64,000 bases of DNA from Acidicapsa acidisoli (GCF_025685625.1 NZ_JAGSYI010000002.1:558001-622000), one strand, 5' to 3'. Positions 14,438 to 32,278 are shown, counted from the first letter of the stretch. Notes: generated by a model from the sequence alone, not told the origin. Program-made: numbers and translations.

Positions 14438-14863
14438 CGCGTCATCAATCTCTAGTGATGCGAGCAGCATTCTCTTACGAGGCATTCGTCAGGCGCCCTG
14501 TGACTATCCTCCACCGCAAAGTGAGTAGATAGGAAAAGCAGTTACTGCAGAGGGCTGCGAGCAAGAATCTTGCACTGCTCGACTTGTTAGAACGAGAGCA
14601 ATGCGGACGACTCAAATCGAACTAGGCCAATCGCATAATTGCGCCGCGTCAAATCTTCGTGTTGCAATGGTCACCCCAAGAGTACCAAGCATTGAGAGAC
14701 ATTGCATTTCGAAGTTTTGGTGTATATCCACGCGCCAGCTAGATTCATTCTCGCAGCGCTCGTGTTCTCCGCGGCTTACCTGCAACGCTGGTTGATTATC
14801 TCGTCCGAAGTGATCGGGACCTGTTTTGGTGCAATTGGGAGACTGGTTCAAGGCGGAAGACAG
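14438..14863. other. Gene-free region before the 1569-aa Ig-like protein
   Basis: No gene or RNA is recognisable across these 426 bp. An in-frame extension upstream from the Ig-like gene exists from 14702 but looks non-coding and would put a second hydrophobic segment before the signal peptide. Confidence 0.5.
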
Positions 14864-17800
14864 ATGAATCGATTGGTAAGGATTGCCTGGTTCTTGCTTG
14901 CGGCTGCTGTGTTTTCTACGGCTTCTCTGGCTTCTGTATCTGTTTCACTTGCTCCCGCAACTGTACACGTACCGCTCGGCGGTCAAACTCAATTCACCGC
15001 GACCGTTGGCGGGACTACCAATAGTGTCGTGATCTGGAGTTTGAACGGCGTAAATTGCAGCGGAAACACATGTGGCCAGATATCCAGTGGTGGTTTGTAT
15101 CTAGCTCCGGCCACTGCTCCATCGTCGAACGTTATCACGGTCACCGCAACATCGCTGGCTGATCTCTCTGCATCCGCCAGCGCATCCGTTATTTTGGGCG
15201 CAACTTCGGACATTACTGTCTCCGTGTCACCGGCACAGGCAACAATCGTTGTGGGCCAGAAGCAGCGCTTCATTGCCATGGTGAACGGAACAACCATCAC
15301 CACTGTTGCCTGGCAGTTAACCGGCGCGGGTTGCAGCGGATCGGCATGCGGCACCCTCACGACTGATGGTCTCTATACCGCACCCTCAGGAGTACCAGCT
15401 CCGCCGCAGGTTACGATCACGGCACTATCTGTGGCTGATCCTGCAAAGTCCGGTTCCGCGACGGTTACGATTGCCCCGCCCGTCGCCGTGAGTGTTTCTC
15501 CTGCGACGGTTCAAGTCACAACTGGAACTCAAAGGCAATTCACGGCAACCGTCACCGGCACATCGAACACCGCTGTATCGTGGAGCCTTGCCGGCAGCGG
15601 CTGCACTGGGGCGGCCTGTGGGAGTATTTCCAGCACTGGACTTTACACTGCGCCAGCGTCCGTGCCCTCGCCTCCTCAGGTATCGGTAACCGCAACATCA
15701 GTGGCTGATCCAACCAAGTCGTCCACAGCGACGGCGACAATCATTCCACCCGTCGTAGTCACGGTTTCGCCATCGACCGCGCAAGTGATCGCCGGAGCCC
15801 AGCAGCAGTTCACGAAAATTGTCACCGGTACATCCAACACCGCTGTATCCTGGAGCCTTGCAGGCAGCGGATGCGCCGGGGCAGCCTGCGGGAGTATTTC
15901 CAGCACTGGACTCTATACTGCGCCATCGTCCGTGCCCTCGCCTCCTCAAGTATCGGTAACCGCAACCTCGGTGGCTGATCCAACCAAGTCGGCCACTGCT
16001 TTGGTGACGATCATCCCGCCTGTCGTAGTCACGGTTTCACCATCGACTGCGCAAGTGGTCGTAGGAGCCCAGCAGCAGTTCACGAGAATTGTCACCGGTA
16101 CATCGAACACCGCTGTATCCTGGAGCCTCGCCGGCAACGGCTGCACCGGGGCGGCCTGCGGGAGTATCTCAAGCACTGGACTTTACACTGCGCCAACGTC
16201 CGTGCCCACGCCTCCGCAGATATCGGTAACCGCAACCTCGGTGGCTGATCCAACCAAGTCGGCCACTGCTTTGGTGACGATCATCCCGCCTGTCGCAGTC
16301 ACGGTTTCACCATCGACCGCGCAAGTGCTCACTGGAGCCCATCAACAGTTCACGGCAACTATCACCGGCTCATCCAACACCGCCGTATCGTGGAGCCTCG
16401 CCGGCAGCGGCTGCACAGGGGCAACCTGCGGGAGTATTTCAAGCACTGGACTTTACACTGCTCCAGCGTCGGTACCCACGCCACCACAGATATCTGTAAC
16501 CGCAACCTCGGTGGCTGATCCAACCAAGTCGGCCACTGCTTCGGTGACGATCATCCCGCCTGTCGCAGTCACGGTTTCACCATCGACCGCGCAAGTGCTC
16601 ACTGGAGGTCATCAGCAGTTCACGGCAACTGTCACCGGCTCGTCCAACACCGCCGTATCGTGGAGCCTTGTCGGCAGCGGCTGCACCGGGGCAACCTGTG
16701 GGAGTATCTCAAGCACTGGACTTTACACTGCGCCAGCCAGCGCTCCTGCTCCGAATCAGGTTACAGTCACCGCAACTTCTGTAGCCGACGGCACCAAATC
16801 TGCCCACGCTACAGTGACAATTATTGGACCGGTGTCGGTCACGATTGCCCCAGCCACCGCACAAGTTGTCATTGGAAGCAGTCAGCAATTTTCCGCCACG
16901 GTGAACGGCATATCGAATACCAACGTCTCGTGGAGCGTAGCCGGCGCCGGTTGCAGTGGAACAGCCTGCGGCACCATTTCCCCTACCGGCCTTTACTTTG
17001 CGCCCGCTGCTGTTCCAAATCCAGCGCAGGTATTTGTCACAGCAACCTCATTGGCCGACGCAACCAAATCGAGTACAGCCACGGTAACAATCACTCCGCC
17101 GATTGCGGTGACGCTCTCACCAACAACGGCGACGTTGACGGTGGGCGGACAACAGCAGTTCAAGGCTGTGGTCACTGGATCGACAAATACCGCTATAACG
17201 TGGAGCGTCAGCGGCAGCGGCTGCGTCGGAGCAGCCTGCGGGATGATCTCGTCAACCGGGCTCTACACTGCACCGGCATCTGTTCCGAGTTCCGCGGTGA
17301 TTGTCAAAGCGGTGTCTGTTGCCAATCCAAGCAGCTTCCGAACCGCCACGGTGACCATTGTCCCGCCAATTGTTGTCAGCGTCTCACCCGCTACAGCGGA
17401 GCTTGTTGCTGGCGCCGATGAGCAGTTCACGGCAACTGTCTCTGGAACGACAAATCGATCCGTCACCTGGAGCGTCACGGGCAAGGGTTGCTCTGGACTG
17501 GCATGTGGCACAATCACGTCCACTGGTTTCTATGGCGCTCCGGGGATCGTTCCTAACCCGGATCAAGTAACTGTGACAGCGACTTCAACCGCCGACCCAA
17601 GCAAGTCGGATAGCGCGACAGTGACTATTCTTCCACCCGTTGCCGTAACGATTTCGCCGTCCAGCACTCAGGTAGTCGCCGGCGGACGCCAGCAGTTCAT
17701 TAGGATCGTGACCGGAACGACGAATACTTTGGTGCACTGGAGCGTAGAGGGTTCGGGTTGCAGTGGAAGCGCCTGTGGAACGATCAGTTCGAGCGGCCTC

Positions 17801-19573
17801 TACATCGCACCGGCTAACATTCCAAGTCCTAATCAGGTGACTGTCAAAGCAACATCGGCGGCTGACAGCACAAAATCGGCATCGGCGATCGTAACGATCA
17901 TTCCGCCGGTTCTTGTGACCATCTCTCCTACGAACGCTGTTGTAGCAACGAACAGCCAGCAGCAGTTCCGTGCGATCGTCGCTGGCAGCACCAATACCTC
18001 CGTCGACTGGAGTCTCAGTGGCGCCTCCTGCTCCGGCTCTACCTGCGGCAGCATTACTTCCGCAGGCTTGTATATGGCTCCGGCAACTGTACCGTCGGGC
18101 GCTACCGTGATTGTCAAAGCTACGTCGCAAATTGACGTTTCGCAGTCTGCTTCTGCAATCGTAACCGTCGTGGCTAACCAGAACTCCAAGTTGCAAGGTC
18201 AATACGCATTCGAATTCACCGGTCTCGACGCCAATGGCATATACGAGTCGGTAGGATCATTCACCGCGGATGGCAATGGAAATATCACATCGGGCGAGCA
18301 AGACGTGAACAACACGCTCGGGCCCAGAACAACTCTCGCCGTCACAGGAAAGTACCAGGTAAGCGGAGAAAATCGTGGCACGCTCTCACTCGTGAGTTCG
18401 AGTGGAAGTCAAACGTTCAGCTTCGCGCTTAACTCGGCCGGGACCTCCGGCAGGTTCATCGAGTTCGATAGCTCCGGGATTCGCGGATCGGGCATTCTTG
18501 AGCAGCAGGATAGCACTGCATTCTCCCTGACTGCGCTGAAGGGGCCGTATGTTCTCAGTCTTGCCGGCAAGACTGGAACAGGCAATCGCATCGGCGCTCT
18601 CGCCATCTTCGACTTCGATGGCTCGGGTGACATTGTCGGCGGCAGCATGGATGTGAACGATGGCGGCACAATTTTGCCGACATTTGCCTCCTTCCAGGGC
18701 ATCTACCGTGTTGACAGCTCGGACAGCTCAGGACGCGGCATTGCGAATCTAAGTATTCCCGGATTCGCCGGCGGCGCGTTGCAGCTAGCCTACTATGTCG
18801 TATCTGCCAATAAGCTCCTGTTGGTTTCCACCGAACCGCTCAGTTCCAGTAGCCCAATCCTCGGTGGCGTCGCAGAGCTGCAATCGGGAGCTCCGTATCT
18901 CGAATCGTCCTTCAAAGGTCCAACGGTATTTAGCCTCAGTGGAGTGAGCGGCAATATCCCGCAAGTCCTGGTGGGGCGAATCTCATTTGATGGAATTTCT
19001 CAGCCATTGGTGGAATTCGATCAGAACACCGGTGGCGCCATAACCACCGGCAACGTGCTCACCGGAGCCTACAGTGTGGGCCTGACTGGAACCGGAACAC
19101 TGAACCTGGATAACTCAAACGGCATGACGAAGGTGTGGGACATGTATGCTATTGCTCCAAATCATGCCTATTTGATGGATGCATCCTCGTCTGATGTCGG
19201 CATGGGCGAACTGAAGCCGCAATTGGCCGAGCCACCTTTCGCGAACACAAGCGTAGTGGGCTCGTATCTCATCGGTTCAGGGGAGCCGCTGGTCTACACG
19301 GCGCCCCTGGACTCTGGCGTGGCCAACTTTGACGGAGTCCGCGCCGTCGCAGGCGTTGAGGACATCAGTTCGAGCTCCGCACTCTCTTCCGCCCAGCCTC
19401 TGATAGGCAGCTATAGCATATCGGGTTCTCTGAATGACGGCAGAGGAACCATGCTTCTCACTTCACCCGGCGCTGCGACTTATGCGCTATGGGTAACTAG
19501 CGCATCCGAGGTATTGGGAGTCGAGATCGATTCGTCCAATCCGCAGCCGGTCGTTCTGCACCTGGAGCAATGA
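14864..19573 (+). CDS. Giant secreted Ig-like repeat protein with a shared C-terminal module
   Basis: The 1569-aa protein has a signal peptide (LVRIAWFLLAAAVFSTASLAS), then 12 tandem Ig-like repeats of about 90 residues. Each repeat contains the strand pattern W-S-L-x-G-x-G-C-x-G-x-x-C-G and then GLYTAP, so each carries a C-x4-C pair that probably forms a disulphide. The last 440 residues (from about 1106, NSKLQGQYAFEF) form a non-repeat C-terminal module with internal motifs such as GSFTADGNGNITSGEQD and GALAIFDFDGSGDI; the same module ends the protein at 21-24 kb. No enzyme domain or anchor is visible. A surface or exported adhesin- or matrix-like role is likely. The start at 14864 follows AGGCGGAAGACAG and puts the signal peptide at the N terminus. 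Repeats 3-7 are nearly identical at DNA level. Confidence 0.85.
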   Translation: MNRLVRIAWFLLAAAVFSTASLASVSVSLAPATVHVPLGGQTQFTATVGGTTNSVVIWSLNGVNCSGNTCGQISSGGLYLAPATAPSSNVITVTATSLADLSASASASVILGATSDITVSVSPAQATIVVGQKQRFIAMVNGTTITTVAWQLTGAGCSGSACGTLTTDGLYTAPSGVPAPPQVTITALSVADPAKSGSATVTIAPPVAVSVSPATVQVTTGTQRQFTATVTGTSNTAVSWSLAGSGCTGAACGSISSTGLYTAPASVPSPPQVSVTATSVADPTKSSTATATIIPPVVVTVSPSTAQVIAGAQQQFTKIVTGTSNTAVSWSLAGSGCAGAACGSISSTGLYTAPSSVPSPPQVSVTATSVADPTKSATALVTIIPPVVVTVSPSTAQVVVGAQQQFTRIVTGTSNTAVSWSLAGNGCTGAACGSISSTGLYTAPTSVPTPPQISVTATSVADPTKSATALVTIIPPVAVTVSPSTAQVLTGAHQQFTATITGSSNTAVSWSLAGSGCTGATCGSISSTGLYTAPASVPTPPQISVTATSVADPTKSATASVTIIPPVAVTVSPSTAQVLTGGHQQFTATVTGSSNTAVSWSLVGSGCTGATCGSISSTGLYTAPASAPAPNQVTVTATSVADGTKSAHATVTIIGPVSVTIAPATAQVVIGSSQQFSATVNGISNTNVSWSVAGAGCSGTACGTISPTGLYFAPAAVPNPAQVFVTATSLADATKSSTATVTITPPIAVTLSPTTATLTVGGQQQFKAVVTGSTNTAITWSVSGSGCVGAACGMISSTGLYTAPASVPSSAVIVKAVSVANPSSFRTATVTIVPPIVVSVSPATAELVAGADEQFTATVSGTTNRSVTWSVTGKGCSGLACGTITSTGFYGAPGIVPNPDQVTVTATSTADPSKSDSATVTILPPVAVTISPSSTQVVAGGRQQFIRIVTGTTNTLVHWSVEGSGCSGSACGTISSSGLYIAPANIPSPNQVTVKATSAADSTKSASAIVTIIPPVLVTISPTNAVVATNSQQQFRAIVAGSTNTSVDWSLSGASCSGSTCGSITSAGLYMAPATVPSGATVIVKATSQIDVSQSASAIVTVVANQNSKLQGQYAFEFTGLDANGIYESVGSFTADGNGNITSGEQDVNNTLGPRTTLAVTGKYQVSGENRGTLSLVSSSGSQTFSFALNSAGTSGRFIEFDSSGIRGSGILEQQDSTAFSLTALKGPYVLSLAGKTGTGNRIGALAIFDFDGSGDIVGGSMDVNDGGTILPTFASFQGIYRVDSSDSSGRGIANLSIPGFAGGALQLAYYVVSANKLLLVSTEPLSSSSPILGGVAELQSGAPYLESSFKGPTVFSLSGVSGNIPQVLVGRISFDGISQPLVEFDQNTGGAITTGNVLTGAYSVGLTGTGTLNLDNSNGMTKVWDMYAIAPNHAYLMDASSSDVGMGELKPQLAEPPFANTSVVGSYLIGSGEPLVYTAPLDSGVANFDGVRAVAGVEDISSSSALSSAQPLIGSYSISGSLNDGRGTMLLTSPGAATYALWVTSASEVLGVEIDSSNPQPVVLHLEQ
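15482..16831 (+). repeat. Five near-identical 270-bp tandem repeats
   Basis: Units start at exactly 15482, 15752, 16022, 16292 and 16562, and the next, more diverged repeat begins at 16832. Each is one Ig-like repeat (90 codons). High DNA identity suggests recent duplication or gene conversion and makes the repeat number likely to vary between strains and hard to assemble. Confidence 0.9.
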
Positions 19574-20676: not shown

Positions 20677-21360
20677 TCACTGTTCCGACAGGGCCTTCAC
20701 CGCATCGGTTGCGTCTGGATATCCGTGCGCGCTGGATTTCTGATACCACGCGAGGGCGTCGGTTCGACTCGGAGATGTTCCCAATCCTTTTTCGTAAAGG
20801 TAGCCCACCTTATATTCGGCTTCAGCGCGTCCCTTCTGGGCAGCCATCAGGTACCATTTCATCGCGTTTGGATAACTCTGCGCGACTCCCAATCCTTGCT
20901 CGTACATCTCGCCTAACCGGTATTGGGCTTCGGGCCGTCCTTGTTCGCCCGCTTTCGCGTACCACTTCGCTGCCTCTGCGTAATCCTTGCTCGTTCCGCG
21001 GCCCTGGTCGTACATCACGCCCAGCCGGTACTCGGCATCTTTGTGGCCCTGCTTCGCAGCAAGCGTGTACCACTTGATAGCTTCTGTAGGATTTTGAGGA
21101 GACTGCGCTACATCGTACATTCCTCCCAGCCGATACTGTCCATCGGCATATCCCTGATCCGCTGCAAGCCGGAACCATCGCATCGATTCCCGCACGTTGC
21201 GCGGAACCGCCAGTGCGTACTTCATTCCGAGCCGAACCTGAGCGTTGGGATCGCCCGACGCAGCCTGTTGATTGAGCGCAGCAGCGTCGTCTTGCGGAAG
21301 GCTGAATCCAAGCGGTGCAACCGCAATGACAAGTGAGAGTAAAGCTGAGAGTCGTTTCAT
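20677..21360 (-). CDS. Secreted Sel1-like repeat protein
   Basis: The 227-aa protein has a signal peptide (LSALLSLVIAVAPLGFSLPQ) and five Sel1-type TPR-like repeats of about 36 residues, with the pattern A-x-x-x-Y-x-L-G-x-M-Y-x-x-G and A-x-x-W-Y-x-x-A. Sel1 repeats are protein-protein scaffolds, in the periplasm when exported. An ATG at 21372 overlaps the stop of the preceding Ig-like gene (ATGA), while an ATG at 21360 has GAGGA 5 bases upstream; I chose the latter, but translation is probably coupled in either case. It is therefore likely co-transcribed with the 1124-aa Ig-like protein and could assemble or anchor it. That role is inferred. Confidence 0.82.
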   Translation of the reverse strand: MKRLSALLSLVIAVAPLGFSLPQDDAAALNQQAASGDPNAQVRLGMKYALAVPRNVRESMRWFRLAADQGYADGQYRLGGMYDVAQSPQNPTEAIKWYTLAAKQGHKDAEYRLGVMYDQGRGTSKDYAEAAKWYAKAGEQGRPEAQYRLGEMYEQGLGVAQSYPNAMKWYLMAAQKGRAEAEYKVGYLYEKGLGTSPSRTDALAWYQKSSAHGYPDATDAVKALSEQ

Positions 21361-21368
21361 ATCGGTCC

Positions 21369-24300
21369 TCATTGCTCGAAGTGCAGAATTGTTGGTTGAG
21401 GAGTGGTCGAGTCAACATTCAATCCGACAAATTCGGATGCGCTTGTCACCCAAACCGCGATCGTCTTGCCACTTGGCGAAGTCAGCAAAATCGAACCTCG
21501 GCCATTGTTCGAAACGCTCGATACCGAATAGGTTCCAGTCAGTATCTGATTTGGCGAAAGCGTGGAAGCCTGACTTATATCTTCCGCTCCCGTGGCCGCA
21601 CCAAGGCCCTGGAGATTGCTGCCTCCGTCAAAGTTCGCAGTGCCTGAGTCGAGTGGAGTTGTCTGCAGGATCGGTTCGCCGGAGCCAAATAGATAGCTGC
21701 CGAGTATGTTCGAATTGGAGAAGGGGGCAAACGCCGTTTGCGCCTTCATTTCGCCAACGGACACGGTACCCGTTGAAGCATCCATCAAGAATGCCGTGTT
21801 CGGCGAAATTGCGTATAGATACCAAATCGTAACGCTGCCGTTGGCCGGGTTATCGAGATTGATAGTTCCGCGTCCATTCAGTTCTATGTCGTAAGCACCT
21901 GTCATGACCGTGCCGACACTGACGGTGCCTCCATTGTTTTGATCGAAAACTGCCGTAATGTTTGAGCCACCGTTGAACTCGAAGCGGCCAACGGTATCTT
22001 CAGGAGCCGTTCCATTTGTGCCGCTCAAGCTGAACACAGACCCGCCGCTAAAGGAGGCGGTTGTATAAGGAGCTCCGCTCTGCAATTCGGCCGGACCACT
22101 GAAGATTGGATTGTTGAAGCTGAGTGGATCAGTCGAGATCAGCAACAGCTCGTTCGCAGAGACTACATAGAAAGCGAAGTCGAACATCCCTCCATCAAAG
22201 CCCGGAATGCTGAGCGTTGCAGTTCCGCGTCCCGTCGAATCCACCCCATATGTTCCGGAGAACGTTGCAAAAGTTGGCGAAACAGCGCCACCGTCGTTGA
22301 CATCCAGACTGCTGCCGGAGATGAACCCACTGCCATCGGGAAAAATAAGTCCCAACGCGCCGATACGTTGTCCAGAAACGTCCATGCCCGTAAGCTTGAG
22401 AACATAACCTCCGGCCAGTACGGAAGGATCGAATGCAGTCGTGTCCTGCTTCTCAAGCACGCCGGAACCACGTACTCCGGATGAATCAAACGAGATGAAT
22501 CTTCCCTTCGTCCCGAGAAGGTTCAGTGCAAATCGAAACGTATGCGCTCCCAGCGGCCCACTAATGGTCATCACACCGCGATTGTCGGCGCCAACCTGGT
22601 AGGTTCCTGAGATGGGTGAGTCGCTAAGTACGCTGGCAGTGTTATTAATATCCTCGTGACCTGAAACCAGCTTGCCATTACCGTCAGCAGTGAATGACCC
22701 CGCCTCCTGATAAACGCCATTGCTGTCGAAGCCTGAGAACAGAAAGGCGAATTGCCCCGACAACTTTGCGTTAGCGGTGGGATAGATGGTTACAACGGCT
22801 GAGGCCGAAGTAACGTTGTTGACCTGAGAGGTTGCCTTGACGATCACCGTAGCCACAGAAGGAACAGTCGCCGGCGCCGTATACAAACCCTGAGATGTGA
22901 TGGTGCCGCATGCACTTCCCGAGCAGCCAGATCCACTGACGCTCCATGTTACGGCGTGGTTTGTAGAGCCTGAAACCGTTACTCCAAATTGCTGTTGCTG
23001 CCCAACGGTGACAATGGCGCTTGTCGGCGATATGGTCACCGAAACAGGAAGAATCACAGTGACCGTTGCTGAAGCTGCGGTCTCGCCATCCGCATTAGCG
23101 GTGGCTGTTACCGTCACCTGCGGAGGGTTGGGCACTACACTGGGAGCGGTATACAGTCCAGTCGAAGAAACGGTACCGCACGCCGCACCGGAACAACCAG
23201 CCCCTGTGACACTCCACGTCACGCCGGTTGTCGTTGTGTTTGTCACCTGAGCAGTGAATTGCTGCCGCCCTCCTGCGGCGACCTGTGCCGATTTCGGAGA
23301 TATGCTTACAGCAATCCGCTGAACGATCGTCACCGTCGCCGTACTAGACTGCGTGGAGGCGGCAACGGACGTTGCGGTTACAAATACAAGAGATCCAGCA
23401 GGGAGCGTGGAAGGCGCCGTATAAACCCCGCCTGATGTGATCGTTCCACATGCAGCGCCGGAACAACCATATCCGCTAAGACTCCACAGGACGGCGGTGT
23501 TGCTCGTTCCGGTTACAGTGGCCTTGAAAGTTTGTTGCGCACCTGTATTCAATTGCACGCTGCTTGGTGACACCGCGACAGAAACCTGACCTGGCGCCAC
23601 GATAGTGACCAGGGTAGAGCCCGATTGCGAAGGATTTGCGAGAGATGTCGCGGTGACTGCAACCGTGTTGGGGCTAGGCGCTTTTGCCGGCGCTGTATAG
23701 AGGCCCGTTGACGAGATGGAGCCGCACGTGATGCCGGAGCATCCGCTGCCCGAGACGCTCCAGATCACCACGCCGCTTCCGGGACCGCTCGCGGAGAACT
23801 GTAACGTCGCCCCAGGCTTTACCTGAGGAGCACTGGGAGCGACCTTGATAAGTGAGGAGGAAGCAGCGACTATCGTTGCTGTCGCGCTTGCCGATTTAGT
23901 AGGGGCGGCTACGGAAATCGCCGTGATCGTGACCTTGGGTATCGCTGGAACGCTGGCGGGAGCAGTGTATACGCCGGAAGTTGAAATCGATCCACATGCG
24001 GAACCTGTACAACCAGTCCCGGCAACAGACCATTTCACAGACGTATTCGTAGTGCCCGTAACTTTCGCAGAGAACGTCTGCTGTCCTCCGGCGCTGACTT
24101 GAGCAGTCGACGGCGATACAGAAAGCGAAACCGAGGATGCAGACTCTATGCTCACCGTAGCAGAAGCTGACTTCGTTGGAGTAGCTGCGGAAGTCGCGGT
24201 AACGGTGACTTGTGCCGGTTTCGGAATGACGACCGGCGCTGTATACAAACCGCCCGAAGTGATCGCGCCACAGGCGGTCCCGGAACAGCCTGCTCCGGAT

Positions 24301-24743
24301 ACGGTCCAGTTCACCTTGGTATTCGAACTGCCCGTAACAACTGCGGAGAACTGCTGCTGTCCTGACGGGGCAATTGTTACCAGCGTGGGGGAGATTGTCA
24401 CTCCAATGCCGACAGACGATCCAATCGTAACGCTGGCGCTGCCCGACTGAGTGAGATCGGCAAGGGAGGTTGCAACCACCGCTACGATTGCAGGATTAGG
24501 CGCCGTAGCCGGCGCCGTGTAGAGTCCTTCTGAAGTAATCTCCCCGCAGGAAATGCCACTGCAACCGCTCCCCGAAAGGCTCCAAAGTACAACACCGTCT
24601 GCTGATCCAGTAGCCGTGAACTGCAACTGGCCGCCAGGATTAACATGCGCGGAAGCGGGTGAAACCACTACCGACGCCATGGCGGCACTGTGCAAAGCTG
24701 CAACTAACAGCGCGATCCACATCGAGTTCTGAAGGCACTTCAT
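21369..24743 (-). CDS. Giant secreted Ig-like repeat protein, paralogue of the 1569-aa protein
   Basis: The 1124-aa protein has a signal peptide (MWIALLVAALHSAAMAS) and seven Ig-like repeats with the same W-S-x-x-G-x-G-C-S-G-x-x-C-G pattern and GLYTAP ending as the protein at 14.9-19.6 kb. Each repeat has a C-x4-C pair. The C-terminal 440 residues (from about 670, NAKLSGQFAFLF) align module by module with that protein's end, including SFTADGNGKLVSGHEDIN, GSGVLEKQD and FNLDNP-type motifs. Here the repeats are more divergent from each other, so they are older or have not been recently homogenised. GAGGTGGTCA precedes the ATG. It is coupled to the Sel1 gene downstream and preceded by the DsbA-like gene. 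Surface or matrix function is likely, but not proved. Confidence 0.85.
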   Translation of the reverse strand: MKCLQNSMWIALLVAALHSAAMASVVVSPASAHVNPGGQLQFTATGSADGVVLWSLSGSGCSGISCGEITSEGLYTAPATAPNPAIVAVVATSLADLTQSGSASVTIGSSVGIGVTISPTLVTIAPSGQQQFSAVVTGSSNTKVNWTVSGAGCSGTACGAITSGGLYTAPVVIPKPAQVTVTATSAATPTKSASATVSIESASSVSLSVSPSTAQVSAGGQQTFSAKVTGTTNTSVKWSVAGTGCTGSACGSISTSGVYTAPASVPAIPKVTITAISVAAPTKSASATATIVAASSSLIKVAPSAPQVKPGATLQFSASGPGSGVVIWSVSGSGCSGITCGSISSTGLYTAPAKAPSPNTVAVTATSLANPSQSGSTLVTIVAPGQVSVAVSPSSVQLNTGAQQTFKATVTGTSNTAVLWSLSGYGCSGAACGTITSGGVYTAPSTLPAGSLVFVTATSVAASTQSSTATVTIVQRIAVSISPKSAQVAAGGRQQFTAQVTNTTTTGVTWSVTGAGCSGAACGTVSSTGLYTAPSVVPNPPQVTVTATANADGETAASATVTVILPVSVTISPTSAIVTVGQQQQFGVTVSGSTNHAVTWSVSGSGCSGSACGTITSQGLYTAPATVPSVATVIVKATSQVNNVTSASAVVTIYPTANAKLSGQFAFLFSGFDSNGVYQEAGSFTADGNGKLVSGHEDINNTASVLSDSPISGTYQVGADNRGVMTISGPLGAHTFRFALNLLGTKGRFISFDSSGVRGSGVLEKQDTTAFDPSVLAGGYVLKLTGMDVSGQRIGALGLIFPDGSGFISGSSLDVNDGGAVSPTFATFSGTYGVDSTGRGTATLSIPGFDGGMFDFAFYVVSANELLLISTDPLSFNNPIFSGPAELQSGAPYTTASFSGGSVFSLSGTNGTAPEDTVGRFEFNGGSNITAVFDQNNGGTVSVGTVMTGAYDIELNGRGTINLDNPANGSVTIWYLYAISPNTAFLMDASTGTVSVGEMKAQTAFAPFSNSNILGSYLFGSGEPILQTTPLDSGTANFDGGSNLQGLGAATGAEDISQASTLSPNQILTGTYSVSSVSNNGRGSILLTSPSGKTIAVWVTSASEFVGLNVDSTTPQPTILHFEQ

Positions 24744-24812
24744 TGACCACCTCGTAGTACCTCAAATCAAAGAATGGGGGAGCGCTATTTCCTGGTAGTT
24801 ACAGACAACGGG

Positions 24813-25847
24813 CTATCTCTGTGATATTTGCGGTCTCTGGGCGGCTAAGGCGTTCAACTGCTGATTCACAATGTCCTTGAGGGCCGCATAGTCGACAACG
24901 CCGCTGAAGAAATGGCCATTGACAAAGAAGCTGGGAGTGCCCGTCAATCCAAGACTCTTGGCTTCATCAAAGTCTTTCTTAACTGCAGCCGCCTCTGCCC
25001 CGCTATCAAGGCACGTATCGAAACGATCTCCATCAAGCTTCAACACACGCGCGTGTTCCTTCAGCGCATCCAACTCCGTCAGTTTGCTGTAGAAGAGAAC
25101 GTCGTGATATTCCCAGAATTTTCCTTGCTCGCCAGCACAACGAGATGCCTCCGCCGCCTTTTCCGATCCATGGTGCATTGGCAGTGGAAAGTCTTTAAAC
25201 ACAACTGTGAGCTTGTCACCATACTCCTTTTTGAGTTGCTGTATCTGGGAGTTCACTTTCTGGCAATACGGGCATTGGTAATCGGCAAATTCCACCAGAA
25301 CAACCGGTGCACCTGTCGCTCCGTGCGTATAGGCTTTGGCGATATCCACTTGGGCGGACGGGGGCATCAACTCGATATTGATCGCCGCCTGCTTACGCAA
25401 CTGCTCCACATACGCTGCGCGAGCCTTATTCCTGCGCAGTTCCCGAATGTGCTGCAACACATCATCGTGCACTGATTCAAAAGAGTCTTGCGTGTCCAAT
25501 CCTTCGTAGTAGACCTCGAGCTGGTCTTCTGTGGGATCCTTCACTCCCTTATAGACTTCCGTTTCTAAAAGCTGATCGAGGGGGATACCCTTTTTGCGCG
25601 CTTCATCCGCAAGAAGCCGGTTATCGATTAGTTCTTCGAGAGCCTTTCGCTCGTTAAGATAAAACTGATACTGAGCCTGGAGAAGCTTTCCGCTCTCGAA
25701 CTGCTGCAGATCTGTGAGTGTGAGATCGGCGCCGCTAACCCTGGCAACGACCTGGGCTGATTCTTGTCCGGACTGACCATTCAGCATGGTTGCGGCTGTG
25801 AGAGTTAGTAGAACAACCAAGGAACCTACGATGTGCCCAGTTTTCAT
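24813..25847 (-). CDS. Secreted SurA-N-like/DsbA-like thiol oxidoreductase fusion
   Basis: The 344-aa exported protein begins with a signal sequence (HIVGSLVVLLTLTAATMLNGQ). Residues about 35-165 form a helical domain like the N-terminal domain of SurA/peptidyl-prolyl isomerases: VVARVSGADLTLTDLQQ, NERKALEELIDNRLLADEA and EVYKGVKDPTEDQLEVYYEG. Residues about 175-330 are a DsbA/Thioredoxin_4 domain with VLVEFADYQCPYCQKVNSQ (CPYC active site), VVFKDFPLPMHHGSEKAAEA and the cis-Pro region GLTGTPSFFVNGH. This combination (chaperone-type plus disulphide oxidant or isomerase) suits oxidative folding of exported Cys-rich proteins. The neighbours on the same strand are an eight-cysteine secreted protein and an Ig protein with a Cys pair per repeat. 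The start at 25847 has AAGGA upstream. Confidence 0.85.
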   Translation of the reverse strand: MKTGHIVGSLVVLLTLTAATMLNGQSGQESAQVVARVSGADLTLTDLQQFESGKLLQAQYQFYLNERKALEELIDNRLLADEARKKGIPLDQLLETEVYKGVKDPTEDQLEVYYEGLDTQDSFESVHDDVLQHIRELRRNKARAAYVEQLRKQAAINIELMPPSAQVDIAKAYTHGATGAPVVLVEFADYQCPYCQKVNSQIQQLKKEYGDKLTVVFKDFPLPMHHGSEKAAEASRCAGEQGKFWEYHDVLFYSKLTELDALKEHARVLKLDGDRFDTCLDSGAEAAAVKKDFDEAKSLGLTGTPSFFVNGHFFSGVVDYAALKDIVNQQLNALAAQRPQISQR

Positions 25848-25992
25848 TGCCTTTTCCTTCTCCATCGTTGCGAATGCGTCATTGATAAGTTGTGCCAGGG
25901 CGGGGAAGTCTGCTGCCCCTGGCACTCGAGGACTTTCGGCCGTCTGGCATGCCGTAGTGCCTTTCTTCCTGCATGCCGAGATGGTTTTGTCA

Positions 25993-26574
25993 CTAGTCGC
26001 CAGTACCGCAAGAGCAGATGCCCTGTCCGCTTCCCAGGATGTTCACGAAAGCGCACTGCGCCTGCAGATTTGCAAGCTCGGTCGCGCCAAGTGTGGAATC
26101 CGAGGACTCGGTTTCAGTGATCGGCCAGGCAGTGCCTACGGCGTTCTGGATATGAGTTACCCACGCGCGAAGGTTTGCTTTTGGCGTGACATTGGATGTC
26201 GGATCGCACGGAGAGTTGTTGACCGCGGCAGAAACGATCTTAACAACACCATTCCTCGACACAACGCCGGTCAGTGGATTCGACGTCAGGTTAGAGCGAA
26301 CCGATAGCGTCCGCAGGCCGTTGTGGGTCTCGACGCAACCGCAGCACTCAGTCAGCTGTTGATCTGCGTCAAACACGTAGATCATCGCGCAGAGGTTCCC
26401 GTATGTCAGGCCTGGATTGTCAATCCGGACAGTCGCATCGGGCGCTGGAGCGGCGTTATTCGAGAAGTAGTTGACTTTGTACACATCCTGTGCGGAGGCA
26501 ATGCCGGCGCCGACTGTGATCAGGCCAGCGATTACCAGGGCAACGGAAAGCGTCTTACATGCTGTGAGTTTCAT
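25993..26574 (-). CDS. Small secreted eight-cysteine protein
   Basis: The 193-aa protein has a signal peptide (LSVALVIAGLITVGAGIASAQ). The mature part contains eight Cys: NLC (C1), then 14 residues later ECCGC (C2-C4), SPC (C5), QAQC (C6) and GICSCGTGD as the last residues (C7, C8). The same cysteines, the 14- and 12-residue spacings and the exact CGTGD end are present in the C-terminal domain of the BIG2 lipoprotein at 29.9-32.3 kb. I do not recognise the domain. It is probably a disulphide-stabilised extracellular module. A GGAGGACTCCGA site precedes the ATG. The SurA/DsbA-like gene follows on the same strand after 145 bp. Confidence 0.8.
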   Translation of the reverse strand: MKLTACKTLSVALVIAGLITVGAGIASAQDVYKVNYFSNNAAPAPDATVRIDNPGLTYGNLCAMIYVFDADQQLTECCGCVETHNGLRTLSVRSNLTSNPLTGVVSRNGVVKIVSAAVNNSPCDPTSNVTPKANLRAWVTHIQNAVGTAWPITETESSDSTLGATELANLQAQCAFVNILGSGQGICSCGTGD

Positions 26575-28064: not shown

Positions 28065-28609
28065 AGCGTCCTCCTGCGGCTCCAATTGCACCACCGCTGT
28101 TGCCTGACCACAATCGCACGTATGGACTAACCAAAGAGACTAGAGATCGCTTATCCGCAGTAGAACTGTTTTGTTGTTTTTCTTATCTGTTCATGCAACG
28201 CTCACTGATATATCGCTTTGTTGCAATTTTGTAAAACTCGCTAGGCTGCAACTTCGCTTTTTGCCGCGCGTCTATTGGGCGATAGTTTCCCCAGCAGGTA
28301 TAAACCAATGTAACTAGAGGTGTAAGTTCGTACTCATATACTACCTACCGATTAGTCCAAATAGGCGAGCCCGAACGGCGCAATCGATTCTTCTTGACAA
28401 TGTCCAAACTACCATGGAAAACTCCGGATGCAACTAAATGAGCTCATTCTAATTGAGCAAAGTCAGCCGTTTCTGGTGTCCGGCGCCGTCCGTGACATGG
28501 ACCGGATGCCAGGCAGTTGTTTCGATGCACGGTTTCCCAGGTTGCCCCTACATCGAATCCTCGCCTCCGGCCACCAAAGTATCGGCACCAAAATGCGGAG
28601 GTAGGAACG
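28065..28609. other. AT-rich intergenic region between divergent STN and LuxR genes
   Basis: 545 bp without a recognisable gene. It is visibly more AT-rich than its surroundings at 28140-28440. A TTGACA at 28394 could be a -35 element for the LuxR gene, but I see no good -10 hexamer at the right distance. A GCTCA/TGAGC small inverted repeat lies near 28441-28457. The region probably holds both divergent promoters. Confidence 0.4.
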
Positions 28610-29143
28610 ATGACTACGGCGTTTACCATGCCGGGCTTTCTGTTACTGAACGAGGGATTCCAGCCGATTGCTTTCAATTCCGAGGCTCTTCAGATATTGG
28701 CGTTTCCCACAAGGCCGGAACGGATTCCGCACACAGCCGTATTTCTCGAAGACAAAATCAGATCAAGCCTCTTGGATCGACGCAACGATTCCTCGCCGGA
28801 ATTTGTCAAAGCGTATCGGTCGGGGGGACGCATGTATATCTGTCGCGCGTTTCACATCGATTGCAAAGGACAAGAGGTTGCACTTTGTACTACGGCTCTC
28901 ATTCTGGAGCGTCACTACTCCTCCGTAGCGGAGTTGAGCGATCTCCTGCGTCAGTTCGATCTGACGCCGCGCGAGTTGGAGACGGTGACCTTGCTGGTCG
29001 AAGGGCTCACCAGCAAGGAGATCGCGAACCGTATGAACATCAGTCCAAATACCGTTAAAGCATTTCTGCGCCTCGTGATGGTAAAGATGGATGTCTCCAC
29101 ACGGTCCGGGATTGTGGGAAAGATCGTAGGGCCTCATTCCTGA
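28610..29143 (+). CDS. PAS-like/LuxR-type transcriptional regulator
   Basis: The 177-aa cytoplasmic protein has a short PAS-like N terminus (GFLLLNEGFQPIAFNSEALQ) and a C-terminal NarL/LuxR helix-turn-helix at about 115-170: LTPRELETVTLLVEGLTSKE followed by IANRMNISPNTVKAFLRLVM. There is no receiver domain with a phospho-accepting Asp, so it is not a classic response regulator; a ligand or redox state sensed by the PAS part may control it. Recognition helix NTVKAFLRL is standard. GGAGGTAGGAACG before the ATG at 28610 supports this start. Downstream on the same strand lie the PilZ and BIG2 lipoprotein genes, and divergently the STN gene, all plausible targets. No binding site is recognisable. 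Confidence 0.82.
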   Translation: MTTAFTMPGFLLLNEGFQPIAFNSEALQILAFPTRPERIPHTAVFLEDKIRSSLLDRRNDSSPEFVKAYRSGGRMYICRAFHIDCKGQEVALCTTALILERHYSSVAELSDLLRQFDLTPRELETVTLLVEGLTSKEIANRMNISPNTVKAFLRLVMVKMDVSTRSGIVGKIVGPHS

Positions 29144-29220: not shown

Positions 29221-29541
29221 GTGAAACGCACAAACCATTTCGATCGGCGTCATGAAGTACGATTGCCTCAAAGCCTTGAGGTAACGGTCAGTGAGCTGCC
29301 CCAGCTCGGCTCAACGGAAGATCCCGGCGTGTGCGCCGTAAAGGCCCGTGTGCAAAATATCAGCCATCATGGGGTTTGCCTTATTACATCCTCGCCAATA
29401 GAGAAGTCATCGCTCATTCGGTGCGAGATTCCGGTTGGAGATGCTCCTTTGCTCATTGCCACTCTGATGCAAGTCCGTTGGACTCGCAAGCAGGTAGCGC
29501 CGCCTGAGAGCTTCATATCAGGACTGGAAGCGCTTCTCTGA
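29221..29541 (+). CDS. Small PilZ-domain protein (GTG start)
   Basis: The 106-aa protein begins RTNHFDRRHEVRLPQSLEV: the RxxxR motif of PilZ is present as R-R-H-E-V-R near residues 9-14. The second motif (D/N-x-S-x-x-G) reads NISHHGVCL near 47. Both c-di-GMP binding motifs are thus at least partly kept; Ser is present but the Asp is Asn. The start must be GTG at 29221, since a TAA lies just upstream in frame at 29206 and no ATG follows before the RxxxR motif. No strong ribosome site is visible; a good one at 29201-29205 would serve a short out-of-frame ATG at 29211 instead, so translation may be weak or coupled. A c-di-GMP effector of surface functions is plausible. Confidence 0.7.
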   Translation: MKRTNHFDRRHEVRLPQSLEVTVSELPQLGSTEDPGVCAVKARVQNISHHGVCLITSSPIEKSSLIRCEIPVGDAPLLIATLMQVRWTRKQVAPPESFISGLEALL

Positions 29542-29863
29542 AAACCACTGCGAGCTCTGCATCTCGCGAGTGATCCGTATTTCCTGGCTCCTGCATAGTC
29601 CTATCTTCTCAAAAGAATTGCCTTTCTCTCGATTGGGAGCAGGGGCTTTACAGCTCCGTTCTTCTGCTGTGCCGTGTCGGCATAGAGTCTAGATGAGTTG
29701 CGATTAGCTCCCATGAAGTAATACAAATGGGCTAACATCCTTGCTCTAACTCGGAGTGTTTAAGCTACTTAGATACTTGCGTCCCACCACCTCCTGGCCT
29801 AAAGTCTTACTCGTTCAAAAGCCTAGCCCATTAGAAGTAGTCGCCGATGAGGTATCTGCAGAT
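29542..29863. other. Gene-free region before the BIG2 lipoprotein
   Basis: 322 bp without a recognisable gene. An in-frame GTG at 29756 would extend the lipoprotein by 36 residues, but this would place the lipobox far from the N terminus. Confidence 0.4.
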
Positions 29864-32278
29864 ATGATCGATGCCAAGACTCAAATTCTCCATGCCAACT
29901 GCAAGCAGCAACTCGCAGCGGTTACCCTGTTTGGACTAATGCTGTCCGGATGCGGAGGGCCGAAAGCGATACTGAGCACTTCTCCTCAAATTGAGCAGTT
30001 GAAGGTTACTCCCACGGCTTCGAGCATTGCGCTCGGGCAGACGGCGAATTTCGCCGCAACAGCGATCTTGACAGATGGCTCTTCCAAGGACGAGACCAAT
30101 TCAGTGACGTGGACTAGCAGCAATGGCGGCGTTGCTAGTATCGATGCAACCGGTCATGCCACATCGGTGTCCCCGGGGAATGCGACGATTGTCGCGACGC
30201 TCCATGGGGTGACAAGCGCTGCATCACTCACAGTTTCCAAAGCCGCAATGGTAAACATCGCAGTCACTCCGTCCTCTTCGTCGCTCGCGTCCGGGACCTC
30301 GATCCAACTGAAGGCGACCGGCACCTTCACCGATCTCAGTACACAAGACGTCACCAACGCTGTCACTTGGAAAACATCTGACCCAGGTATCGCGGCTGTA
30401 AGCTCCGCCGGTCTCGCTGCTTCCATATCTATGGGCAAAGTGTCGATTACTGCATCTGCCGGGTCTGTGAGCGGGTCCTCCCAGCTTACTGTGACGGCGG
30501 CAACGCTTGTCGCCATTTCGCTGAACCCGAGCGGGATCACCGTTCCTGCCGGGATCACAGCTCAATTCACGGCGCAAGGCACCTACTCAGACGGTAGCGT
30601 GCGCGACCTGACGAGCGCCGTCTCATGGAGCAGTTCTCCGCAGGGCATAGCAAGTATCAATTCCTCAGGATCCGCGACCGGTGTAAAGGTGGGAACAGCC
30701 GCGATCGCCGCGCAGTTGGGAGGTGTGAGCGGCACGAGTACTTTGACCGTTTCCGCCGCGCAGCTGAAGTCGATCTCAATCAGCTCTGGGAGTTTCACGA
30801 TACCGCTTGGCAACGTCGAGCAAATGACCGCAACGGGCACCTACACGGATGGCAGCACCCACGACCTGACAAACTCCGTCTCATGGTCCAGCGCTTCCGC
30901 AGCAATAGTCAGTGTCAATTCCTCAGGATCCGTGACAGGCCTGAAGCTGGGAACAGCAGCGATCGACGCGCGATTGGGAGGCATGACCGGCACGAGTACT
31001 TTGACCGTTTCCGCAGCACAGCTGAAATCGATCTCAATCAGCTCGGGAAGCCTCACAATACCGCTTGGCAACGTCGAGCAAATGACCGCAACGGGCACCT
31101 ACACGGATGGCAGCACCCACGACCTGACAAACTCCGTCTCATGGTCCAGCGCTTCCGCAGCAATAGTCAGTGTCAATTCCTCAGGATCCGTGACAGGCCT
31201 GAAGCTGGGAACAGCAGCGATCGACGCGCGATTGGGAGGCATGACCGGCACGAGTACTTTGACCGTTTCCGCAGCACAGCTGAAATCGATCTCAATCAGC
31301 TCGGGAAGCCTCACAATACCGCTCGGCGCCGTCGAGCAAATGACCGCGACGGGCACCTATACAGATGGCAGCACCCGCGACCTGACAAACTCCGTCTCAT
31401 GGTCCAGCGCCTCCGCAGCAATAGTCAGCATCGGCAGCGGCGGCTCCGCCAAAGCCAGCGCACTCGGCAAAACCGACGTTTCCGCAATGAGTTCCAAGAT
31501 CAGAGGTGACGCAACGGTGACCGTCTCCCCTGCGGCTCTTTCCTCAATCGCTGTTTCGCCTTCAAATCCAGCCGTGCCTTTGGGACGGGGTGTTCAACTC
31601 GCTGCCATCGGATCATTTACGGATGGCAGCACGCAAGATGTTACAGGTTCCGTGACGTGGGCAGTGAACGACGATTCCATTGTGAGCGTGAAAAGCACCG
31701 GATACGCGACCGCTATTCACGTGGGATCAACCGGTGCGGAGGCGTCGATGAACGGCATTCAGGGCACCGTAACCATTCTTGTCGAACCCCTTGCGGCAGT
31801 CGGCTATTTCGCTACCAGGCCGAACGGGATCGATACCGCACTGCGTGTGACAAATCCCGGTTCCGATGAACCGAATCTGTGCGTAATGGTCTATGTCTTC
31901 GATCAAGATCAGCAGATGTCCGAGTGTTGCGGCTGTCGGATCTCTGGCGATGGCCTTCGCACTTTCTCCTTGAACAAAGACCTCATCGGCAATCCCCTGA
32001 CTGGCCGTGTTTCAACATCGGGTTCGATCCTTCTGGCAACCGGCGACTATGTCAGTAATCCGTCCTGCAACGCTTCTTCGATCAACCCTACGGGCACGGC
32101 GAGGGCTTGGAGCACACACCTTCAAGCGAACTCCGCAAACTCGAGTACTGTCTCTGAAGAACCCCTCTCCGAAACTCCGCTTAACGCAACCCTGACCCTT
32201 GCGCTGCAAGCGCAGTGTAGTTTCGTTCAGCAACTCGGTGGAGGCCAGGGGATTTGCACTTGCGGCACCGGCGACTGA
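29864..32278 (+). CDS. BIG2 Ig-like repeat lipoprotein with C-terminal eight-cysteine domain
   Basis: The 804-aa protein starts with a lipoprotein signal (LAAVTLFGLMLSGCGG, lipobox L-S-G-C), so it is anchored by lipidated Cys. Seven BIG2-type repeats of about 86 residues follow (for example GTYTDGSTHDLTNSVSW and SGSVTGLKLGTAAI). After residue about 645 a different domain begins (VGYFATRPNGIDTALRVTN) with NLC, ECCGC, NPSC, QAQC and the end GICTCGTGD, matching all eight Cys of the small secreted protein at 26 kb. It is likely an extracellular stalk that displays this domain. The start at 29864 (ATG) is preferred since the lipobox then lies at residue 30. Repeats 4 and 5 are almost identical in DNA. 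Confidence 0.85.
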   Translation: MIDAKTQILHANCKQQLAAVTLFGLMLSGCGGPKAILSTSPQIEQLKVTPTASSIALGQTANFAATAILTDGSSKDETNSVTWTSSNGGVASIDATGHATSVSPGNATIVATLHGVTSAASLTVSKAAMVNIAVTPSSSSLASGTSIQLKATGTFTDLSTQDVTNAVTWKTSDPGIAAVSSAGLAASISMGKVSITASAGSVSGSSQLTVTAATLVAISLNPSGITVPAGITAQFTAQGTYSDGSVRDLTSAVSWSSSPQGIASINSSGSATGVKVGTAAIAAQLGGVSGTSTLTVSAAQLKSISISSGSFTIPLGNVEQMTATGTYTDGSTHDLTNSVSWSSASAAIVSVNSSGSVTGLKLGTAAIDARLGGMTGTSTLTVSAAQLKSISISSGSLTIPLGNVEQMTATGTYTDGSTHDLTNSVSWSSASAAIVSVNSSGSVTGLKLGTAAIDARLGGMTGTSTLTVSAAQLKSISISSGSLTIPLGAVEQMTATGTYTDGSTRDLTNSVSWSSASAAIVSIGSGGSAKASALGKTDVSAMSSKIRGDATVTVSPAALSSIAVSPSNPAVPLGRGVQLAAIGSFTDGSTQDVTGSVTWAVNDDSIVSVKSTGYATAIHVGSTGAEASMNGIQGTVTILVEPLAAVGYFATRPNGIDTALRVTNPGSDEPNLCVMVYVFDQDQQMSECCGCRISGDGLRTFSLNKDLIGNPLTGRVSTSGSILLATGDYVSNPSCNASSINPTGTARAWSTHLQANSANSSTVSEEPLSETPLNATLTLALQAQCSFVQQLGGGQGICTCGTGD
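30583..31356 (+). repeat. Three 258-bp tandem repeats in the BIG2 lipoprotein gene
   Basis: Units start at 30583, 30841 and 31099, exactly 258 bp apart (86 codons). Units two and three are almost identical, and the similarity continues into 31357. This indicates very recent duplication or conversion and possible copy-number change. Confidence 0.9.

Follow-up and report, generated by a model that had tools for sequence, protein, structure and literature searches.

A SurA-like/DsbA fusion as the predicted folding partner of an eight-cysteine exported domain in Acidobacteriota

Introduction

Which exported protein does a DsbA-type fusion serve when its gene lies between those of two cysteine-rich neighbours? 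This question is raised by a 64,000-nucleotide stretch of the Acidicapsa acidisoli genome (GCF_025685625.1, NZ_JAGSYI010000002.1:558001-622000; hereafter the window), where four genes follow one another on the minus strand. They encode an eight-cysteine secreted protein (Cys8), a fusion of a SurA-like N-terminal module to a DsbA-like domain (SurDsbA), an 1124-residue protein with immunoglobulin-like (Ig) repeats that carry C-x4-C pairs (Ig1124) and a Sel1-repeat protein. A preliminary description had listed these genes and proposed that the fusion couples chaperone-like holding to oxidation for both cysteine-rich neighbours. We confirmed the four genes in the order given; the Sel1 gene, which overlaps the Ig1124 stop by four bases (ATGA), falls just outside the segment covered by that description. 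Our analysis points to a narrower proposal, in which SurDsbA probably serves Cys8 domains as a dedicated oxidative foldase in the periplasm. This prediction is based on gene linkage, co-occurrence, clade structure, a cysteine pattern with paired losses, and the DsbA fold and motif, and further on a weak SurA_N-type similarity without a parvulin domain and on the presence of VKOR in a genome where DsbB was not found.

Results

Linkage of Cys8 and SurDsbA

A Cys8 scan of bacterial genome contigs returned eleven loci. Seven of them, all from Acidobacteriota (L017, L019, L020, L021, L023, L024 and L025), contain the genes for P359 (an envelope protein), Cys8, SurDsbA, an Ig protein and a Sel1 protein in the same order as in the window. 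A divergent gene for a LuxR-type regulator was found on the other side in six of the seven loci, accompanied in five of those six by genes for a PilZ-domain protein and for the repeat protein Big840; the sequences of L020 and L021 end early on the LuxR side. L019 belongs to Paracidobacterium acidisoli, of which cultures exist. The same block is carried by genomes G366, G408 and G410, which may overlap with the above loci. Since the same order is found in seven further loci, under strong purifying selection, the neighbourhood is more than a chance arrangement, and the loss of gene order that the preliminary description had named as grounds for abandoning its proposal was therefore not what we found. 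That description had overlooked that LuxR, PilZ and P359 belong to the conserved block, as well as a second Cys8 domain in the window, located at the C-terminus of Big840.

At L026 the locus is reduced to LuxR-Cys8-SurDsbA, without Ig or Sel1 genes, and the arrangement in G036, where LuxR-Cys8 ends 154 bases before the end of one contig and the fusion begins another, is consistent with the same order. LuxR-Cys8-SurDsbA is the minimal locus; the LuxR gene lies beside the pair in most loci, minimal ones included, and the Cys8 and SurDsbA genes are adjacent on the same strand, with a spacing that, where measurable, is usually 68-180 bp.

Co-occurrence was determined across 399 genomes of the class, with Cys8 identified by profile and the SurDsbA clade by a cut-off of at least 285 bits, below which there is a gap down to 236. 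Cys8 was present in 15 genomes and the high-scoring SurDsbA group in 14. The specific fusion clade occurred in 13 of the 15 Cys8 genomes versus 1 of the 384 others (Fisher p = 1.7e-21, ignoring kinship among the genomes, although four families are involved). In a maximum-likelihood tree of 35 fusions, the Cys8-linked ones were placed in a single clade (support 100/99; 21 linked, one unlinked and one of unknown linkage), and the remaining SurA-N/DsbA fusions of the class formed a separate clade (100/99), beside whose members no Cys8 gene was seen within a view that for some spans about 1.5 kb on each side. The unlinked member comes from G208 (86% complete), a genome in which no Cys8 was found; between LuxR-PilZ and the fusion, it encodes a 401-residue protein and an exported 411-residue protein with 12 cysteines (L087:8042-9277), possibly a client that has taken the place of Cys8. 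Because the two genes co-occur so consistently, the enzyme is probably a private folding helper of Cys8.

Of the earlier proposal that the fusion serves both neighbours, the linkage to Cys8 stood and the Ig half did not. Oxidation of Cys8 together with the C-x4-C Ig protein would fit their common strand and order in the window's family and the retention of the C-x4-C pairs, which the preliminary description had rightly recognised, in 9 out of 10 Ig1124 orthologues. However, the C-x4-C Ig repeat, found in 145 of the 399 genomes, shows no association with the fusion clade, being present in 7 of 14 genomes with the clade and 138 of 385 without it (p = 0.21). Moreover, the giant protein downstream of the fusion in three genomes of another family (f6) is a PKD/Ig-like protein with 0-1 cysteine (it has 2,318 residues in one genome and at least 2,524 in the next, and in the third ends at 737 with its contig), and in the window a 1623-residue Ig paralogue that is rich in these pairs has its own gene on the opposite strand. 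As the repeat is untied to the fusion and the f6 proteins are nearly free of cysteine, we restricted the proposal to Cys8 and regard joint oxidation of the two neighbours as unlikely; on these same two grounds, Ig1124 was ruled out as a specific client. The downstream protein of G417 is of the NHL/Big_3_5 type. A large downstream protein is a recurring neighbour of the pair, and its cysteines are not the conserved feature.

The SurDsbA protein

The GTG start of the SurDsbA reading frame is probably too early, and an ATG at 25847 or 25865 fits better. The N-terminal helical module (approximately 25341-25763) gave a profile matching the N-terminal part of HP_0175, a SurA/PrsA-like isomerase of Helicobacter (2e-4), and 12 of 14 SurDsbA members weakly matched SurA_N_3; the Pfam scan detected no parvulin (Rotamase) domain in the SurDsbA of the window. 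The C-terminal domain matched Thioredoxin_4 (9.6e-30) and DSBA (1.8e-21) in Pfam, and the CPYC cysteines and the TP of the cis-Pro loop (GTPS) are invariant. The structural model, with a predicted local distance difference test score (pLDDT) of 77.6, opens with a pair of short strands and long helices packed in a bundle, followed by a DsbA fold, a thioredoxin fold with a helical insertion, whose target-normalised template modelling (TM) scores to 3gyk and BdbD were 0.81-0.83; ScsC/BcfH-type proteins are also listed by the fold search. These results bear out the initial assignment of a DsbA-like protein with a CPYC motif, fused to a probably SurA-like N-terminal part and encoded beside a cysteine-rich exported protein. 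The genome has a single VKOR (5.9e-19), on another contig, and DsbB was not found in it, which makes VKOR the likely re-oxidant.

A general periplasmic thiol oxidase or isomerase, encoded here by happenstance, would be in keeping with the closeness of the DsbA domain to general oxidases such as BdbD and with the existence of Cys8 domains that do without the fusion. This seems slightly less likely still, given that the fusion clade is nearly confined to Cys8 genomes, adjoins Cys8 across four families and forms a clade of its own, in a genome that already has six other DsbA-like places.

The Cys8 domain

The signal peptide of Cys8 is of the Sec type, with its end between ASA and QDV, and the eight cysteines are located downstream of the cleavage site, in agreement with its first description as an eight-cysteine secreted protein. 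The conserved cysteines are C62, C77, C78, C80, C123, C174, C187 and C189. The family has no match in Pfam, NCBIfam or PDB sequences, and in our searches it was found in this acidobacterial class only: among 396 genomes of a phylum sample it was present just in the own genome, and PLSDB, checked for plasmid spread, gave no match. Two stand-alone copies, L018:7947-8582 (90% identical) and L022:7938-8600 (75%), are surrounded by unrelated genes; the genomes in question contain the complete module as well.

All eight cysteines were kept in 51 of the 57 distinct Cys8 domain sequences. C62 and C123 are missing together in G198, and the G421 paralogues lack one of C77/C78 together with one of C187/C189, neighbouring cysteines that the alignment does not separate. 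Because these are two independent paired losses which the domain has survived, the pattern favours disulphides rather than a metal site, and two of the four bonds are therefore predicted, C62-C123 and (C77 or C78)-(C187 or C189). Were Cys8 instead a metal- or cofactor-binding thiol protein whose cysteines SurDsbA reduces or isomerises, like ScsC or DsbC, its CCxC and CxC motifs could bind the metal, and the presence of ScsC and BcfH among the SurDsbA fold matches would be accounted for; nevertheless, both paired losses leave an even number of cysteines and no DsbD-like reductant gene was recognised among the annotated part of the neighbours in the loci examined, so that we find this improbable.

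When the window was compared with its nearest relatives, nonsynonymous divergence (dN) was 0.06-0.07 for Cys8, 0.13-0.19 for SurDsbA, 0.20-0.29 for Ig1124 and 0.21-0.28 for Sel1. All four genes are under purifying selection, which is strong in Cys8, the most constrained of them, with a synonymous divergence (dS) of about 1. Joint horizontal transfer of an island instead of joint function would match the patchy distribution (the fusion is in 0 of 14 congeners at E<=1e-40) and the lower guanine-cytosine (GC) content and flattened GC skew of the region, yet is the least probable of these alternatives, as Cys8 and SurDsbA have stayed together in four families despite turnover of most of their other neighbours and the four compared genes are all under purifying selection.

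In all eight Big840 orthologues examined a lipoprotein-type N-terminus, with lipoboxes assigned by eye where a strict pattern missed them, is followed by Big_2 repeats and then by the Cys8 domain; because of this succession, the domain probably caps a lipid-anchored stalk at its distal end. Cys8 is also the C-terminal domain of several unrelated exoproteins in one other family (L089, L092 and L096), with a CxSC-xxGG-like tail. In two related genomes, a gene for a cysteine-rich pro-kumamolisin-type protease stands directly upstream of Cys8 (L079:4963-7161 and L081:3-2051). The AlphaFold model of Cys8 (pLDDT 64.7) shows, at low confidence, a beta-sandwich and a C-terminal helix, and a Foldseek search with it retrieved nothing at E<=0.001. 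VIA-align proposed 1nc7 (TM1070; Z 8.7) and the Anabaena sensory rhodopsin transducer (Z 5.9), which are too weak for a fold or a function to be assigned.

Other features of the window

The features of the module and its surroundings are collected in Table 1. In P359 the secretin/TonB short N-terminal (STN)-like segment is weak and was detected in 5 of 10 members, and in Ig1124 Pfam recognised Big_2 and similar domains. In L017, L019 and L024 homologues of the 1623-residue Ig paralogue are found next to the module.

Table 1 Genes of the Cys8-SurDsbA region, in coordinates of the window.
Feature	Coordinates	Strand	Description
Ig-repeat paralogue of Ig1124	14702-19573	+	1623 aa, numerous C-x4-C repeats like those of Ig1124; transcribed towards the module
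Sel1-repeat exported protein	20677..21372	-	five Sel1 repeats (Pfam 7e-45); accessory
Ig1124	21369..24743	-	exported; Ig-like repeats (Big_2/I-set), seven C-x4-C pairs; accessory, lineage-specific partner
SurDsbA	24813..25925	-	exported fusion; N-terminal SurA/PrsA-like helical module, C-terminal DsbA domain with CPYC
Cys8	25993..26574	-	193 aa; Sec-type signal peptide and one eight-cysteine domain; C-terminus GICSCGTGD
P359	27015..28094	-	fast-evolving envelope protein upstream of Cys8; STN-like segment
LuxR-type regulator	28517..29143	+	GerE helix-turn-helix; divergent from Cys8-SurDsbA
PilZ-domain protein	29221..29541	+	downstream of LuxR
Big840	29756..32278	+	840 aa; lipobox-type N-terminus (LSGC), seven Big_2 repeats, C-terminal Cys8 domain (31790-32278)

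Promoters and terminators in the window showed no excess over shuffled sequences. Across loci, hairpins 3' of the Cys8 stop were stronger than those of a coding control (mean z -1.67 versus 0.19, p = 0.0009), possibly setting Cys8 expression above that of the enzyme. As the signal is also found 3' of the fusion gene (mean z -1.13) and is weak in the window itself (z -1.1), we regard the Cys8 hairpin as no more than a possible attenuator. The Cys8-SurDsbA intergenic hairpins reach z <= -2.7 in 8 of 20 cases and are unrelated in sequence.

Positions 12000-46000 of the window have a GC content of 0.51-0.59 and a flattened skew, and the flanks approximately 0.55-0.62 and a strong skew; this segment is possibly an island, in which no tRNA was found, nor any integrase among the proteins scanned.

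Discussion

Several observations weigh against SurDsbA being a dedicated foldase of Cys8. In the window's own copy, the similarity of its N-terminal part to SurA_N_2/3 (3.7e-4 and 1.2e-3) is under the curated cut-off of Pfam, the Fisher test carries no correction for phylogeny, and the Cys8 of G272 lacks C174 alone and is left with seven cysteines. The six further DsbA-like places of the own genome could oxidise Cys8, and stand-alone Cys8 copies are distant from any fusion at L018 and L022, and perhaps at L027. Finally, G286 and G152 encode 8 and 5 Cys8 domains, respectively, with plain DsbA-like proteins only and no cognate fusion, which indicates that the fusion is not universally required. 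From these fusion-free domains and the stand-alone copies it follows that SurDsbA would be an optimised helper, or that other DsbA proteins substitute for it there.

If SurDsbA is the foldase of Cys8, the Cys8 chain would first be exported through Sec and, still unfolded, would be held by the parvulin-less SurA/PrsA-like module. The tethered DsbA domain would then insert its disulphides, probably four, by means of the CPYC motif, acting as a putative oxidase with predicted specificity for this client, and the single VKOR of the genome would re-oxidise SurDsbA. The domain would be used in two ways, as a free exported protein and as the C-terminal, presumably distal, domain of the Big840 stalk, and we infer a role at the cell surface. 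The large Ig/PKD proteins and the Sel1 protein would be lineage-specific surface partners rather than the reason for the enzyme. More tentatively, the locus may represent a surface system of one acidobacterial class that is under LuxR control. In such a system, a chaperone and an oxidase joined in one chain would fold a new type of domain with four disulphides; this domain would be secreted and also presented on lipoprotein Ig stalks, and might form an extracellular coat or fibre.

To our knowledge, few bacteria, most of them pathogens, have been found to pair an oxidase with a client of its own. The present work predicts such a pair, which four families of a major soil lineage have in common and whose oxidase shares its polypeptide with a chaperone-like module. 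It would be a compact system, open to experiment, for studying how holding and oxidation are combined on one substrate, and an unannotated exoprotein domain gains a name, Cys8, and a likely partner. Among the papers searched, none dealt with a fusion of SurA to DsbA or with this locus.

DsbL/DsbI, which Grimshaw 2008 (cited in PMC12724015) is said to have described alongside arylsulfate sulfotransferase in uropathogenic E. coli, reportedly includes an additional oxidase of the DsbA type that serves a single periplasmic client. Like that of DsbL, the SurDsbA gene is tied to one particular client gene from genome to genome. Unlike DsbL/DsbI, it is fused to a SurA-like module, it has no DsbB-like partner in the locus or the genome but a single VKOR, and its putative client is a small cysteine-rich domain. 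With BcfH/ScsC-type proteins (7jve, 7rgv and 4xvw), whose N-terminal part serves trimerisation, SurDsbA shares a DsbA catalytic domain with an added N-terminal region, which is however a larger SurA/PrsA-like module. BcfH is reportedly trimeric, going by the title of Subedi 2021 as cited in PMC12724015. SurA, PrsA and HP_0175 resemble SurDsbA in the N-module, which matches the N-domain of HP_0175 and, weakly, SurA_N, although SurDsbA is without a parvulin domain and is fused to DsbA. The class also has further SurA-N/DsbA fusions with this two-domain architecture, but they form a separate clade, with no Cys8 neighbour seen. For DsbL/DsbI, PMC6067686 discusses the possibility that the two are a dedicated redox pair. 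Dedicated Dsb-client pairs are thus already known, and what sets the present case apart is the fused SurA-like module, the lack of a DsbB-type partner and a predicted client family not described before.

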